The notes beneath the pieces were generated by a model that saw nothing but the letters and a program-made list of their open reading frames with translations, did not search any database and was not told the DNA's origin. This document shows, piece by piece, positions 25,860 to 61,731 of a DNA stretch of 64,000 bases. A program made the translations under genes and the position numbers. The DNA is taken from the NCBI RefSeq assembly GCF_021134715.1, contig NC_060023.1, positions 11,470,001-11,534,000 on the forward strand. Reading direction: 5' to 3'. How positions within the stretch are numbered: position 1 is the stretch's first letter; the number at the start of each line of letters is the position of its first letter. The stretch comes from Daphnia pulex. Taxonomy: Eukaryota; Arthropoda; Branchiopoda; Diplostraca; Daphniidae.

Positions 25860-28592
25860 GTTAGTTATTAATTTAGACTCATTCGCTAGAATAGATGAAT
25901 TGTATCAAAACTGCCACATCTATTCAGTCCATTAACAAAATAGTCTTATTTTGGAATATCGCCAATTTTAGCCCAGTGCCCAAAAATTTATTTTAACCTT
26001 CAGAGTTTATTGTTTGTAATTTGCCGCAACACTGGCTAAATTTCGATTCAAAGTGTAGGTTGTGAAATATTTGATGAAATGAATGGTTGGTGGAAGACTT
26101 ATTGTACGTTGGCCGATTAGAAGCAATACAATTTCGAGGGAAGCTGAGTGTTTGATCAAGAAATCCCTTCTTTTAGCTGTAGAAAAATTTTCTTAATGTA
26201 GAAAAGTTCTTAATTTTATTTTTTTCCTTTTTTTTTAACAGTAGTTCCAGCTGCAGCAGCAGCCGTTGCAGTCGCCGGTGATTTTCCCGTGCACGTTCCT
26301 TATCTATTGATTGGAGCTGGTACTTCATCGTTTGCCGCTTTCCGTGCCATCAAATCACGTGACCCGAAAGCAAAGGTAAAAAAAATTTTTATTGGTTTTG
26401 TTTACATGCATAGTAAAAATATTTGTGTTGTACCCATTACAGGTTTTAGTCATCGGTGAAGAAAATCACTTGCCCTACATGAGACCACCTCTGTCGAAAG
26501 AATTGTGGTTCAGTGAAGACCCCGAAGTTTCAAATAAACTTCGATTTAAACAGTGGAACGGCAAAGAGCGAAGGTGAGCCCAATGTTAATTACAACTATG
26601 TGGAACATGTACTAATGACTTATTTTCCTTCCCAGTCTCTTTTTCGAACAAGACGAATTCTATTGCAATCCCGTCGAATTGAACAGCAAAGATAATGGCG
26701 GCGTTGCAGTTGTACGTGGACACCGCGTCGTTAAACTTGACATTGTTGGTCGGAAAGCCGAACTTGACGATGGTCGTACCATCACATACGACAAGTGCCT
26801 TATTGCCACAGGTAAACATTTTATGCTAAACGAAATTCGTCTTTAAAAGTCTCAATGATTACACCCTTATGGAATGTTGAACAATTTTGATAATTATCCT
26901 GCTAGATAGTATCTGAGAGCCTTTTTAAATTTCAGCAATTTATTTGTGTTTTTACGAATCACTCTAAAAATGGCCGTTGTTTTATTGCTAGGTGGTAAAC
27001 CGAAATCTTTGCCATCCCTGAGCAGTGCCCCTAAAGATGTCCAGGAACACTTAACCTTGTTCCGCAACATCGATGACTTCCAGCGACTCGACTCCATCTC
27101 CCGCCAGGTCAAGTCCATCACCATTATCGGTGGTGGATTCCTTGGCAGTGAACTTGCCTGTGCTCTTGGCAGAAGAGGTAAATAATTGAACCATTCATAA
27201 AATCATTTTAGTCACTGTGATTATAAATTATGGAATGTTGAACGACTATGATTGTCTTCCTGCTAGATAGTATCTGAGTATTAACCTTGTTTTGAATCCA
27301 TTCAAGTTGTTGGCAAATTGCATAATGGAAACATATCTTTCATTTAGCCAAAAGTAATGGATTGGAGGTGCTTCAAGTTTTCCCTGAGGACGGTAACATG
27401 GGCCGAGTCCTCCCTAAATATTTGAGCCAATGGACAACCGAGAAGGTGAAAGCGGAAGGTGTTCAGGTTATGCCCAAAGCTATTGTTGAGGGTGCAAGCT
27501 TGGAAGACAACAAGGTCGTATTGACCTTAAACGATGGTCAAAAGGTAAACATTTATTTTAATACATGTCTTAGCGATGTCAACTAAAATCTAACAATTAT
27601 TTCATCAGATTAAAACTGACCATGTTGTCGTTGCTGTTGGTTTGGACGCAAACACGGATTTGGCCGTCGCTTCTGGTTTGGAAATAGATTCCAATTTTGG
27701 TGGTTATCGAGTCAATGCCGAGCTTGAAGCACGATCAAACGTCTGGGTGGTAAGAATTCTTGGAACATTTTTCATTTCATATTTTTGTAATACTTGTGAT
27801 TATAACTTAATCAACATTGACTTCTCTGATGTTGTTGCTAGATAGTATATGAAGTTTTTGTTAAGTAATTTTACACCTTTGAAGGTAAAATTAGATTTTA
27901 ATTTTGCATTTTGGCCTTGATGTTTTATTAGGCTGGAGATGCTGCCTGCTTTTATGATATCAAATTGGGTCGCCGTCGTGTGGAACATCACGACCATGCT
28001 GTTGTATCAGGGCGATTGGCTGGAGAGAACATGACCGGTGCCGGCAAACCTTATTGGCATCAGTCCATGTTTTGGTCAGACTTGGGACCTAATGTCGGTT
28101 ACGAAGCCATTGGTATCGTGGACTCTTCTTTGGAAACGATGGCTGTCTTTGCCAAATCAACTGCTGCCGACACACCAAGGGCTGTTGTTGAAGCTACCGG
28201 TGAAGGTGTCCGATCAGAAACTGAAAATGTACGCAGTCGATCATTCATATTGAATAGTCAACAGCATATTTATACATTTCTTCCGATGCTTTAGGCCGCT
28301 TCTGAACAATCTTCTCTGAAAGAGTCGAGCAAACTTCACGCACCTGTCGCCGGAGAAGACTACGGCAAGGGTATCGTCTTTTACACCAGAAATGACGTCG
28401 TGGTGGGCATGGTCCTTTGGAACGTCTTCAACAAAATTCCTGTCGCCCGCCGAGTAAGACTTGAATATTAGTATAAATAGTTCTTTGTTGTTATATTATC
28501 AACCATATTTATTTTTCTTTTAGATTTTGAAGGAGGGTTTGACGACGGATAAACTCGCCGAAGCAGCCAAACTCTTCGATTTACACGAGTGA
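24903..28592 (+). CDS. AIFM1: Apoptosis-inducing factor, mitochondrial (AIFM1), long form about 723 aa
   Basis: Exons: 24903-24984, 25095-25279, 25341-25755, 26242-26375, 26443-26573, 26636-26811, 26992-27177, 27348-27544, 27609-27749, 27932-28228, 28295-28453 and 28524-28592. A basic presequence ([10 protein letters not shown]) precedes one membrane segment ([20 protein letters not shown]) whose surroundings look like the Deltameth_res domain. An Ala/Val/Glu repeat linker follows, then FAD-binding [30 protein letters not shown]-binding [20 protein letters not shown] and the C-terminal AIF domain ([10 protein letters not shown]). AIF is an NADH/FAD oxidoreductase anchored in the inner mitochondrial membrane and facing the intermembrane space. 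It supports respiratory-chain import with CHCHD4 and promotes DNA degradation in cell death. The exon 3 to 4 junction is my inference: donor GAAG|GTGAAG at 25756 and a tandem acceptor at 26241/26244, both in frame. The rest is firm. Confidence 0.88.
25513..25647 (+). repeat. 27-bp coding tandem repeat in the AIF linker
   Basis: About five units of nine residues, PVAVVEEAA and close variants, in exon 3. It forms a flexible, negatively charged linker between the membrane anchor and the FAD domain. Confidence 0.75.
26849..26920 (+). ncRNA. Candidate box C/D snoRNA 1 in an AIF intron
   Basis: It lies in the intron 26812-26991. C-box-like ATGATTA at 26855-26861, D box CTGA at 26913-26916, with CTC before the C box able to pair with GAG after the D box. 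The antisense element just upstream of box D is GCTAGATAGTAT. Counting five bases from box D would direct 2'-O-methylation of the U in UACUAUCUAGC, a segment I recall as conserved in eukaryotic 28S/25S rRNA (the yeast snR66/snR78 target region). Two relatives lie in other introns of this gene. Confidence 0.62.
27212..27281 (+). ncRNA. Candidate box C/D snoRNA 2 in an AIF intron
   Basis: Intron 27178-27347. C-box-like GTGATTA at 27217-27223 and D box CTGA at 27274-27277. It shares ggaatgttgaac in the middle and the same antisense GCTAGATAGTAT before box D with candidate 1. The terminal stem is weak. Confidence 0.58.
27791..27856 (+). ncRNA. Candidate box C/D snoRNA 3 in an AIF intron
   Basis: Intron 27750-27931. 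C-box-like GTGATTA near 27796-27802, the antisense GCTAGATAGTAT, then ATGA in place of CTGA at 27849-27852. ACT before the C box pairs with AGT after the D-like box. This is the most diverged copy; the altered D box may weaken or abolish function. Confidence 0.5.
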
Positions 28593-30244: not shown

Positions 30245-33200
30245 CTAGATCTACATATTCTGTTAGGAAGCACGTAGCTTTTTTAAATGCCTATACCAGG
30301 GGGCAATGATGTTATGTAAGAGGCTGCACCATTGTTCTTTTAAATTAAGAAATTTCATAGCACACTGTAGTGTAAGAACTTTTAATTATCTAGACGAAAA
30401 TGACGGATATAAAATGACGACAAAACAATTGATGTATTAAAAGGAAACTGTTCTCGCTGTACATTGACGTTGGGATCAGGTCTTCAAACAGTATCAAAGA
30501 AAATTGTATAAGATAATCGTCGTCCATCATTATAGCAGCTGCCGCGACAGAGGTCGTCTACTCAGAATGTTACCTCTGTCATCCGAGGACATGTGACCAT
30601 ATTGAGAATAATACTTAGATCCGCCGTCTAGGTTTATCCTTTTAATGTCGTACCTGAAAAATGCTGACCACTTTAAACTTAATACAAGTTATAGCGGGAC
30701 ATTGAACGAGGAAAATTGGCGAGTTCCGCGTATAGTAGAACTCCCCATCACATGTAAAGTTCAATTGTAAATGTCATTATAGAGAAGTTGACTAGCTATG
30801 TTAGTGACATCCAACAGGGAGGGAGGCGATGATTATTAGCCCATCTCGCGTCGAAATCCATTTTCAAATGTACCCCCAATTGGCCATCAACAGAAAATTC
30901 CAAGTTCCGATTGCCCAAATGCATATGCGCTAGCATGCTGGCCAAATTCAACTCCCCCCTTCTTCCTTCCTTCCGTTTTATCGTCGGGTGGCGGGAGCGA
31001 ATTCCCCCACTTTCAATCACTTTGACTTTATTTTATAACTTGTACACATACAACTGCTTCCCCCCCCCCCTGCCGGGTTGATTGACATTCATTGAATTTT
31101 CAGTTTAAAAAAAAAGTTTTGGTTAAAAATAATTTAGACTAAATCAGCTTAATTCAATTGAATGTCTGGCTGGACACGACCGGACGGCAAACCTTTCACG
31201 TCAGGAGCAAATGGAATTAGATTATACACGGATGACTGAAACTCGATCGATATTTAATCCATTTGATTCCCTCCCGTCCATCAGCGAATGAAAGTGAATT
31301 GAACTCGTTCGGTTCTATCCGAAAATAGAAATATCAACACGACACAATAGAAGCGATGCTCAAACTTTGCCACGACAATCAAGTCTAAACAGTTACATAA
31401 AAGTCTATATCCCTCAAAAGGTCTGTTGAGATCGATTGATGGATATAAAAACCCATTTTGCTCGCAACAACAACAGCGCAAAGTGGCTAGATGGGCGTGG
31501 TGTATCGCCCTGAAGCTACGACGACTCATCTGGGAAAAAGGAAATCAAAACCTCTTCGATCTCGACGGGAAACGGCCGGTGCCTGAAGGCACTGTGCTCG
31601 TCAAGCGTCATCATCACAGCCTGAGGCGTACCTTTTGATTAGTCAATCGAGCACAACTCGTCGGCACGAGCTAGGCACTTTGTCGACTCAATTTGCCATG
31701 TATAAAACTACAAATAGATCAAACAATTTTTGAAATCTAAACAGACGTAATAATAGTCTTAACTAAACTAAATAATAGAACGAGCCTTTACTTTTGTTTT
31801 CCACCCTCTGTGAAATGCGATTCTATCTTTTACATTCACGTTTTTGATGATGGACGCACGCCGGTCGTGTCGATATCCATTCAGCCAGTAGGAGGTAAAA
31901 CGATACACAATAAAAAGATGAGCCCAGATTGAATGACGACGACGACGCTTCTTCTTCTTCTTTTTATGATTAGACAATAAACCTTGACAGGCAATGAAAG
32001 GGACTCGCAGTCCAGCCCGCAAACGATAATAAATCTGAAAGAAGAGCTAGCAGCAGCCGGTGGAAGCAGATTGAATGAAGGATGTTTAAGAGTTTTTACC
32101 GTGCTGCATATGCGCTATCAAAGGAGACGGCGGCCATTAAGTGGGACATGATAAAAATGGAGGCAGATGATTAACAGACGAGCGAAAAAAGTTTTTGTTA
32201 AAAATTTGTTTCTTTTTTTTCGTTCAATTGTTTACAAATGGCGTCGATTTTCTTCTTTTTTTCTTCCGTTCGTGATGTCGACTTTTTGATCAGCTATTGT
32301 CGAACGTGTCGTCAAAAGGATTCGACTTATTCTTTGCGATGGAGAAATCAATAACTTGCATCGAATTCGATTTTTAAGTCTAGCAAATTGTATCAAAAGT
32401 TGTTGGAAACATCCGCGCTGACTGGGTGGAAAAAAAGGGAATTTTTTCCCGCATCAGTGGAACGTGAGGGTCAGCCGTCGGCGGTGAAAATGTCGACGCT
32501 AATAAGATTTAGAGAAAAAAATTGGAAAGTAAAAAAAAGGGAATCGTCAACTGATGGAAAGGAAGTGAATTTATTTCTTTTTAAAGGACATCAAACATTG
32601 CGAGTAAAAACAAATTTCCGGAAATTTTCAAAAGTAAATTAACTGCGCTCTGCACAAACAAACAAATTGAAATCAAGATTGGATGAATAGAACTTTGATG
32701 AGTAATAAATACTCATTTTTTTAAGAATCAGATATGTCTGGAATAGAACAAATTGGAGCGAAATCTAAAATCAGTTGCATTCATCGTACAGTATCGTCTC
32801 CCGAAAACTATGTCCGAAAAGTATAGTATAGAGGGGGGAAACATAAAATGTCAAGTCGAGTCGCTTGTGTTTGATGTTTAGCTCTTTGTAAGGATCCCCC
32901 AGTACCCCCTCATCTGTGCCTCTCTTGTCTACTACATAATAGCCGGGCTTATATTCATCCCCCACTCGTGTGTCTATACGAAATCAATCGATTTCTCGTT
33001 TCTTTGCAAAAGACGACGAGTGCATCACATCACAAAAGATAATGGCAATGTAGGGAAATGAAAAAAAAAGAACACGGCGTATTGAAGGATTACATGGAAG
33101 AAAAAAGAGGAATAAGTGCCCTTATTCGTATAGTTTCTGATTAGAGAAGGAGTTGCGCGCGCAGTTGACGGTGATGCGCCGGCCAATCGCTTCATTCTCT

Positions 33201-60317: not shown

Positions 60318-61731
60318 TTAACGGCGAGAAGAAGAAGAAGAATCGGGTAGGTGGACAAGGCTCATCATTTGCCGGCCGGCGGATGGAGTGCGGCGGGCGG
60401 ATCGGCGTACAGTTTCGCCCCATCGGTTCGACGTCGGGAAGAAACTGCGACCGAAACGAATGAAATTGGATCTCAAACTGCGAGAAGGGCGAGCCGGATG
60501 AAACGATCGCTCTCCATCCTTGCCGGAATCCGATTCGTTCAACCCCATCAACCTGAGATTCATTCCAGACACACAAACACCCAAAAAAGAGAAGAAGAAA
60601 ATAATGTAAATAACATTCGGGTTACAACGCACGGATGTCTTATATAACCTCCCACGCGCTCGGCACAGATTTCACGAGACCGGCATCATTTTATAAATAA
60701 ATTAAATTTCAATGCCAGTTAATTTCTCTCGGAACTTGGAGCAGCACAGCAGTCGAAAAATATATGGGCGACATTTTTCTTCCTCCTTTTTAATTGGTTA
60801 CACAACTTTTGAGCTCTGAAAAAGTTGACAACAACTAGTCGATTCAACTTTTATGGCGCTCGGGTGACAAGTGGACGAATTTCGGCGGAATTTCGGGAAA
60901 GTCGCACATATCAATTTCATCAAGGGAACATTAAAAAACGTCAAGACTGCTATCCTCGAAAGATGTGAGAGCATTAAAAAATAGTCGTAAAAAAAGTTTG
61001 GACTCGAGCGAGAAGGAATCGGGAGCAGTTTGGATGAAATATTTCCACTGATTTAATTTTTGAAATTCAATTAACTGTGAAATGGATCGAAAAAAAAGAA
61101 TCGCCGAATAAGGGACTTGAACCCTTGACCTCAGGATTAAAAGTCCCGCGCTCTACCGACTGAGCTAACCCGGCGTTATCAATTCAAGTTAAATAAAAAA
61201 TCCGGACCTTATTTCCTAAAGTGATTCGATCAATCATGTATAAGGGGGAAGATGGAAAGTGATTAAACTTAATAAATAGGGTTAGTTTTTAAAAAATAAC
61301 CGCCGCGATATATACCTGATGGGTTGCGTTGGCTGCATCTGACGGCTGACATCAGTCTTGATCACTCCTCCGCCGCTGCGTCCGAACCGGATGAAATTCT
61401 TATTTAACGCACTGCGGCGATAAAGCGCAGCGATGGGAGCCGATGCCCCACTTCGGCTGGTAACCAACGGCTCGGCTTCTTGTCTCTTGCTCTGTCGATA
61501 AAGATCTTTCATGGCGCTCAAGTACAATTCAATCCCTTTATTGTTGTTGTCGTCCTCTTCTGCCGAGTCGGATGATCCAGCAGCACTGCCGGATAGAAAA
61601 TTCTCGTCGTCGACATCTTCTTCCGGCGTTTCGTCATCCGGCCGGACTTGGCCGACGTTGACGATCATCATCAGACCGAGAATGAGCATCAGGAAACGCA
61701 GCCCGTTCATGTTTCTGTAGTTCCGGTTCAT
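60318..61731 (-). CDS. FMRFamide-like (FIRFamide) neuropeptide precursor, about 216 aa
   Basis: Two minus-strand exons, 61316-61731 and 60318-60552, joined in phase across an Arg codon (AG|G). The signal peptide is MNGLRFLMLILGLMMIV, from the second Met at codon 8; the first ATG at 61731 adds seven residues. An acidic spacer precedes RR, then SALNKNFIRFG-R. Exon 2 holds SR, then SLRSNFIRFG-R. Each core ends FIRFG before a basic residue, giving two predicted C-terminally amidated peptides, SALNKNFIRFamide and SLRSNFIRFamide. The ends resemble the extended crustacean FMRFamide-like peptides (NRNFLRFamide). Such peptides act on muscle, heart and neurons through GPCRs. A tRNA gene sits in the intron on the same strand. 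Confidence 0.82.
61103..61174 (-). tRNA. tRNA-Lys (anticodon UUU)
   Basis: The 72-nt cloverleaf read on the minus strand closes fully: acceptor stem GCCGGGT/ATTCGGC (two G-U pairs), D arm GCTC...GAGC, anticodon arm CGGGA-CTTTTAA-TCCTG with anticodon TTT, T arm AAGGG-TTCAAGT-CCCTT. No CCA is encoded and no intron is present, as expected for a nuclear tRNA. It lies inside the RFamide precursor intron, same strand. Confidence 0.95.

Follow-up and report, generated by a model that had tools for sequence, protein, structure and literature searches.

Three candidate box C/D snoRNAs that share a guide, in introns of the AIF gene of Daphnia pulex

Three introns of the AIF gene of Daphnia pulex carry the same short sequence, GCTAGATAGTAT, which raises the question whether the introns encode three small guide RNAs with one rRNA target or share the sequence by descent or insertion only. 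The window analysed is a stretch of 64,000 nucleotides (contig NC_060023.1, positions 11,470,001 to 11,534,000 of the forward strand), and the genome searched comprises 133 Mb in 13 contigs. The boxes, the position within the introns, the enlargement of these introns, the 11-bp guide and the similarity of the copies support the original prediction of box C/D snoRNA candidates with a shared rRNA guide, and the three are very probably intronic box C/D snoRNAs of this kind.

Host introns and anatomy of the three units

The plus strand from about 26244 to 28592 is the part of the AIF (apoptosis-inducing factor) gene whose exons were read; upstream exons are outside the mapping. The protein obtained by joining the exons matches Pfam AIF_C (1e-56) and Pyr_redox_2 (8.8e-47). 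The eight introns read are, in order, 67, 62, 180, 170, 64, 182, 66 and 70 nt long. Exact copies of GCTAGATAGTAT are found at three places in the window, 26901, 27262 and 27837, all on the plus strand, and the motif is confined to the three long introns (170-182 nt), while the other five introns read (62-70 nt) are without it. The features are as follows, with boxes and guides read from the sequence.

26244..28592, plus strand: AIF gene, part read (host gene), with Pfam AIF_C and Pyr_redox_2
26812..26991, plus strand: third AIF intron read, host of sno1, 180 nt, GT...AG with an open coding frame on either side
26855..26916, plus strand: sno1, candidate snoRNA from box C to box D, 62 nt
Parts of sno1, plus strand: box C ATGATTA 26855-26861; D'-like TTGA 26877-26880; C'-like TGAT 26888-26891; guide GCTAGATAGTAT 26901-26912; box D CTGA 26913-26916
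27178..27347, plus strand: fourth AIF intron read, host of sno2, 170 nt
27217..27277, plus strand: sno2, candidate snoRNA from box C to box D, 61 nt
Parts of sno2, plus strand: box C GTGATTA 27217-27223; D'-like TTGA 27238-27241; C'-like TGAT 27249-27252; guide GCTAGATAGTAT 27262-27273; box D CTGA 27274-27277
27750..27931, plus strand: sixth AIF intron read, host of sno3, 182 nt
27796..27852, plus strand: sno3, candidate snoRNA from box C to box D, 57 nt
Parts of sno3, plus strand: box C GTGATTA 27796-27802; D'-like TTGA 27817-27820; C'-like TGAT 27827-27830; guide GCTAGATAGTAT 27837-27848; box D ATGA 27849-27852

The order of box C, TTGA (D'-like), TGAT (C'-like) and box D is kept in all three copies, each of which has the pair of boxes expected of a box C/D RNA, RUGAUGA near the 5' end and CUGA near the 3' end. 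Box C is RTGATTA throughout, with one departure from RTGATGA (G6 to U), and box D is CTGA in sno1 and sno2 but ATGA in sno3. The D'-like and C'-like words are separated by 7, 7 and 6 nt; being short, they carry little weight. The RTGATTA box, the shared element and the closing CTGA or ATGA are therefore present in three AIF introns as originally described. The stretch between box C and the guide had been put at 50-60 nt and is shorter, 39 nt in sno1, 38 nt in sno2 and 34 nt in sno3; counted from box C through box D the units span 57-62 nt. Terminal stems of 2-3 bp were read by hand (CTC/GAG in sno1, AC/GT in sno2 and ACT/AGT in sno3), with paired bases that differ from copy to copy and one unpaired base preceding box C. 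Free folding of the three units gave no gain over shuffled sequences (z 0.51, 0.09 and -1.32).

The usual distance of box D before the 3' splice site is 70-80 nt. Here the end of box D lies 75 nt (sno1), 70 nt (sno2) and 79 nt (sno3) before it, and the stretch between the 5' splice site and box C measures 43, 39 and 46 nt. Measured from the splice sites and not from branch points, all three units thus have the fixed spacing to the 3' splice site that is expected of intronic box C/D snoRNAs; the portion of PMC8162545 consulted describes for them a conserved position, roughly 50 nt upstream of the branch point.

With up to 2 mismatches allowed, GCTAGATAGTAT has 7 matches in the window, 3 of them exact. 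A shuffle control gave a mean of 2.80, and 4 of 100 shuffles reached 7; this control covers up to 2 mismatches and therefore does not bear on the exact matches. A combined scan was made for RTGAT[GT]A followed by a word of 10 nt antisense to L064, a 3.1-kb piece of eukaryotic 28S (see below), and then by [CA]TGA. The four matches in the window are sno1, sno2, sno3 and one at 32035, which is probably due to chance. Reversed and sense 28S words both gave 0 matches, and among 60 first-order Markov windows there were no matches in 44, one in 11 and two in 5. Once the demand for box C was dropped, the signal could not be told from noise (13 antisense, 9 reversed and 13 sense matches), so the boxes matter.

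Between the introns of sno1 and sno2 the local alignment spans about 70 nt and scores 68; between those of sno2 and sno3 it spans about 62 nt and scores 39. Neither score was reached by any of 1000 randomised introns. The introns of sno1 and sno3 are weakly alike (score 31, reached by 5 of 1000). By these alignments the three look like one paralogous set, in which sno3 shows the greatest divergence.

The guide and its predicted target

No snoRNA was found in the window with Rfam at the gathering threshold, and the only match was a tRNA gene (61102-61174, minus strand, 71 bits). At a relaxed threshold sno1 matches snR65 (RF01204) at 26870-26969 with 31.4 bits (E 0.49), below the gathering score of 40, while sno2 and sno3 are unlisted for RF01204 and have no Rfam snoRNA match up to E 10. 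A match of sno1 to the box C/D family U54 is no better than chance (17.3 bits, E 9). The alignment to snR65 sets the AUGAUGA of the model on the AATGTTGA stretch, off box C of sno1. The 17 nt of guide and box D in sno1 and sno2, UGCUAGAUAGUAUCUGA, are identical to the Rfam consensus of snR65; sno3 shares the first 13 nt and then has ATGA.

Searches of the assembly with patterns, with a DNA query of 601 bases and with the 5.8S family, for which 39 of 4056 candidates were scored, found no intact rDNA; very common words are skipped by the search, so absence of rDNA from the assembly is not established. Because the species' own 28S was not found, the 28S reference was taken from L064 and the target is a predicted one. 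L064 is a Gammaproteobacteria MAG contig that matches eukaryotic LSU and covers part of the 28S. The sole LSU-like piece found in the assembly, at C9:4166929-4167145 (locus L069, in G000), is degenerate, and its sequence at the target site differs. This piece is at 78% to L064, has what look by eye like further LSU-like stretches nearby, and is perhaps a pseudogene or parasite-derived.

The sequence CTACTATCTAGCGAAACC is present in the eukaryotic LSU of L065 and L066, from cyanobacterial MAGs, and also in L067 and L068, which have no Rfam match. Since L064-L066 come from bacterial MAGs yet match LSU rRNA of eukaryotes, they are probably contamination. Among the best 10 of 494 plasmid records and the best 10 of 17 phage records only partial matches were seen, with 60-90% identity and none over more than 80% of the query; we infer that these are bacterial 23S. 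Viral contigs had 0 matches for two longer patterns and 2 for an 18-mer.

On the 28S of L064 the guide forms 11 contiguous Watson-Crick pairs and one G-U pair with a stretch that reads CCCTATCTACTATCTAGCGAAACC, which bears out the predicted complementarity over 11 bases to the segment UACUAUCUAGC. The pairing begins one base from box D and, as counted on L064, reaches the length of about 10 nt or more that is looked for immediately before a box D or D'. A hand count anchored on positions 2337, 2340, 2349 and 2351, taken from the accessible part of PMC8307265, places the equivalent of yeast U2347 opposite the fifth guide base from box D. The identical guide and this hand-counted position on L064 correspond to those of snR65 as a guide to LSU U2347, and sno1-sno3 would accordingly share its predicted target; whole-RNA common descent with snR65 is outside this claim. 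That the fifth base falls on a U methylated in yeast agrees with the hand count, as U2347 is the site of snR65, while the names first given for it, snR66 and snR78, do not fit. The sites of these two (25S 2417 and 2421) are 70-74 nt downstream of 2347, and they were rejected as counterparts.

The proposed mechanism is that sno1-sno3 would be transcribed with AIF as three paralogous box C/D snoRNAs, released by processing of the spliced introns and built into fibrillarin snoRNPs; RNAs of this class are stable and are bound by fibrillarin, NOP56, NOP58 and 15.5K. The element of 11-12 nt just upstream of box D would pair with the conserved 28S segment, presumably also present in the 28S of this species, and direct 2'-O-methylation at the yeast 25S U2347 equivalent, the U that faces the fifth nucleotide upstream of box D. 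It is conceivable, though quite improbable, that three redundant guides in introns of AIF, a gene of apoptosis and respiration, let AIF transcription set the dose of the partial modification at this position and so couple mitochondrial state to ribosome composition.

The alternative that survives best, although unlikely, accepts the snoRNAs as real and supposes that at least one of them, sno3, mainly serves another target, or is an orphan or decaying. The stretch before TTGA, where a D' guide would lie, is TTATGGAATG in both sno1 and sno2 and CTTAATCAACA in sno3, which also has the deviating box D. The D guide of sno3 is nevertheless identical over 12 nt, and its best D' match in L064 has 9 Watson-Crick pairs. 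The best matches for sno1 and sno2 have 8, in runs that for all three are of 9-10; no control was made for these counts, and nothing convincing emerged as a D' target in L064, which covers only part of the 28S.

Copies of the motif outside AIF

The relaxed motif of guide and box, GCTAGATAGTANNTGA, occurs at 24 places in the genome (reversed control 1), comprising the 3 in AIF, 13 in AIF fragments and 8 in copies of a different repeat, located on C3 and C10. Among these places no intact host gene other than AIF was seen, and we infer that export of the motif from AIF is likelier than its import.

A search of the genome with AIF sequence gave 71 matches; among those listed, the main ones share 74-88% identity with AIF. 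The 33 AIF fragments (L031-L063; G000 C2, C4, C5, C7, C8, C9 and C11) have retained introns, and those carrying GCTAGATAGTANNTGA match both AIF exons and introns. Fragments that match on both sides are without the equivalent of about 27076-27390. Many fragments form inverted pairs separated by some 6-17 kb, and one pair, L032/L033, is a palindrome with 7-kb arms (99.6%). In the two fragments checked, L032 and L036, a same-strand stop-to-stop ORF with tyrosine-rich YYTT repeats follows, for which there is no Pfam match. The copies at C7:1.5-2.0 Mb (L036-L042, L062 and L063) form a second fragment type, in which the BLAST match starts at window position 27270, inside the sno2 guide, and runs through sno3.

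Gaps that are not a multiple of three are found in 12 of 22 alignments of exon 3, 17 of 30 of exon 5 and 21 of 32 of exon 6, with inverted twins counted apart and alignments below 60% of the exon dropped. The sno1 intron could be aligned over at least 70% in 19 of the 33 fragments (14 dropped), 17 of which are distinct. Guide and box D are kept in 4 of the 17, all chosen by the motif, and in 0 of the other 13. For the sno3 intron 12 of 33 fragments were aligned (21 dropped) and 9 are distinct; the 6 that keep guide and box D were all chosen by the motif, and 0 of the other 3 do so (L062, L063 and L033, the last chosen for the sno1 motif).

Taken over all distinct copies, the alignment cells that differ from AIF in the sno1 fragments number 6/119 in box C, 26/204 in the guide, 15/68 in box D, 114/663 in the rest of the unit and 450/2023 in the flanks. 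In the sno3 fragments the corresponding values are 7/63, 5/108, 3/36, 64/306 and 210/1170. Inclusion of motif-chosen copies makes the guide and box D counts too low, and the cells are not independent since the fragments share descent. Box D of the sno1 fragments differs as often as the flanks and the guide only somewhat less, so the fragments alone show no selection. As a group they look nearly unconstrained.

Duplication within AIF, with a segment copied between introns and the shared text owing to descent only, with no working RNA, has in its favour the clear paralogy of sno1 and sno2 along some 70 nt and a tendency of AIF sequence to be duplicated, as the 71 matches indicate. It is nonetheless a very doubtful account: apart from the guide and the boxes sno1 and sno3 have little in common, the core that is shared is antisense to 28S and sits beside box D at a near-constant distance to the 3' splice site, the reversed and sense 28S controls gave 0, and the motif is intact in all three AIF introns but in none of the 13 distinct fragments that were selected without it. 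A repeat or mobile element that carried the motif into the AIF introns would explain the many places of GCTAGATAGTANNTGA, 8 of them in the C3/C10 repeat, and is the least credible reading of all, because 13 of the 21 places outside AIF are fragments that match AIF exons and introns and the C3/C10 repeat, as judged by eye, is unlike the AIF introns beyond CTGCTAGATAGTA. This repeat reads AATTGA or AACTGA where the AIF counterpart is ATCTGA or ATATGA, and its copies (L010-L015, L029 and L030) have CTGCTAGATAGTAATTGA in 7 cases and CTGCTAGATAGTAACTGA in 1.

Comparison with known guides

Three intronic guide RNAs remain the preferred reading; sno1-sno3 would be new instances of a class already known, ordinary in kind and less ordinary in their target for an animal and in their threefold redundancy in AIF. 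Yeast 25S Um2347 is guided by snR65 (PMC5199042 and PMC8307265, both in excerpt) and is partially methylated, with values of 61-76% in the former. In the part of PMC11542601 consulted the yeast entry is Um2347 and that of both tomato and tobacco Um2350, with Arabidopsis unmapped and the human column blank. PMC8307265, likewise in excerpt, marks 2347 as conserved in human; its entry reads Um, Psi or Psim, and the mark may therefore mean pseudouridine. U2347, modified only partially in yeast and blank in that human column, is an unusual site for an animal guide; if the reading is true, the lineages known to guide this position would gain an animal member. Three paralogous guides in one host gene, together with decayed intron fragments, would also be a natural system in which selection on guides and boxes can be measured.

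Human 28S U3904 of the older numbering is taken here to be Um3925. The table of PMC11542601, as far as it was available, aligns human Um3925 with yeast Um2421 and pairs it with Arabidopsis Um2422, a pairing adopted over that of U3904 with Arabidopsis U2411 in the accessible part of PMC6461891. Human SNORD52 was rejected as a homologue by position, its site being yeast 2421 in the same table. No Drosophila guide named for the U2347 position was seen in the passages of PMC13228274 and PMC5932544 consulted, and among the titles listed by searches of open-access text none concerned snoRNAs in AIF introns or a guide for U2347 in crustaceans.

The closest known system is yeast snR65, with the identical UGCUAGAUAGUAUCUGA of sno1 and sno2 covering the guide and the CUGA box, and with the same predicted target nucleotide. 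In the snR65 model of 100 positions this CUGA stands at 44-47, in the middle of the RNA, which by our reading is a D' position, whereas in sno1-sno3 it is the last box of units of 57-62 nt. The Daphnia units also differ from snR65 in being three copies, intronic in AIF, and in the score of the sno1 match, which is below gathering. Human SNORD52 (28S U3904) and yeast snR78 (25S Um2421) are likewise box C/D guides to a U in the same LSU region, but their site is 74 nt downstream of U2347 and their target differs from that of sno1-sno3. Several isoforms per guide are found in box C/D families of Drosophila too, for example CD5a-c in the main text of PMC13228274.
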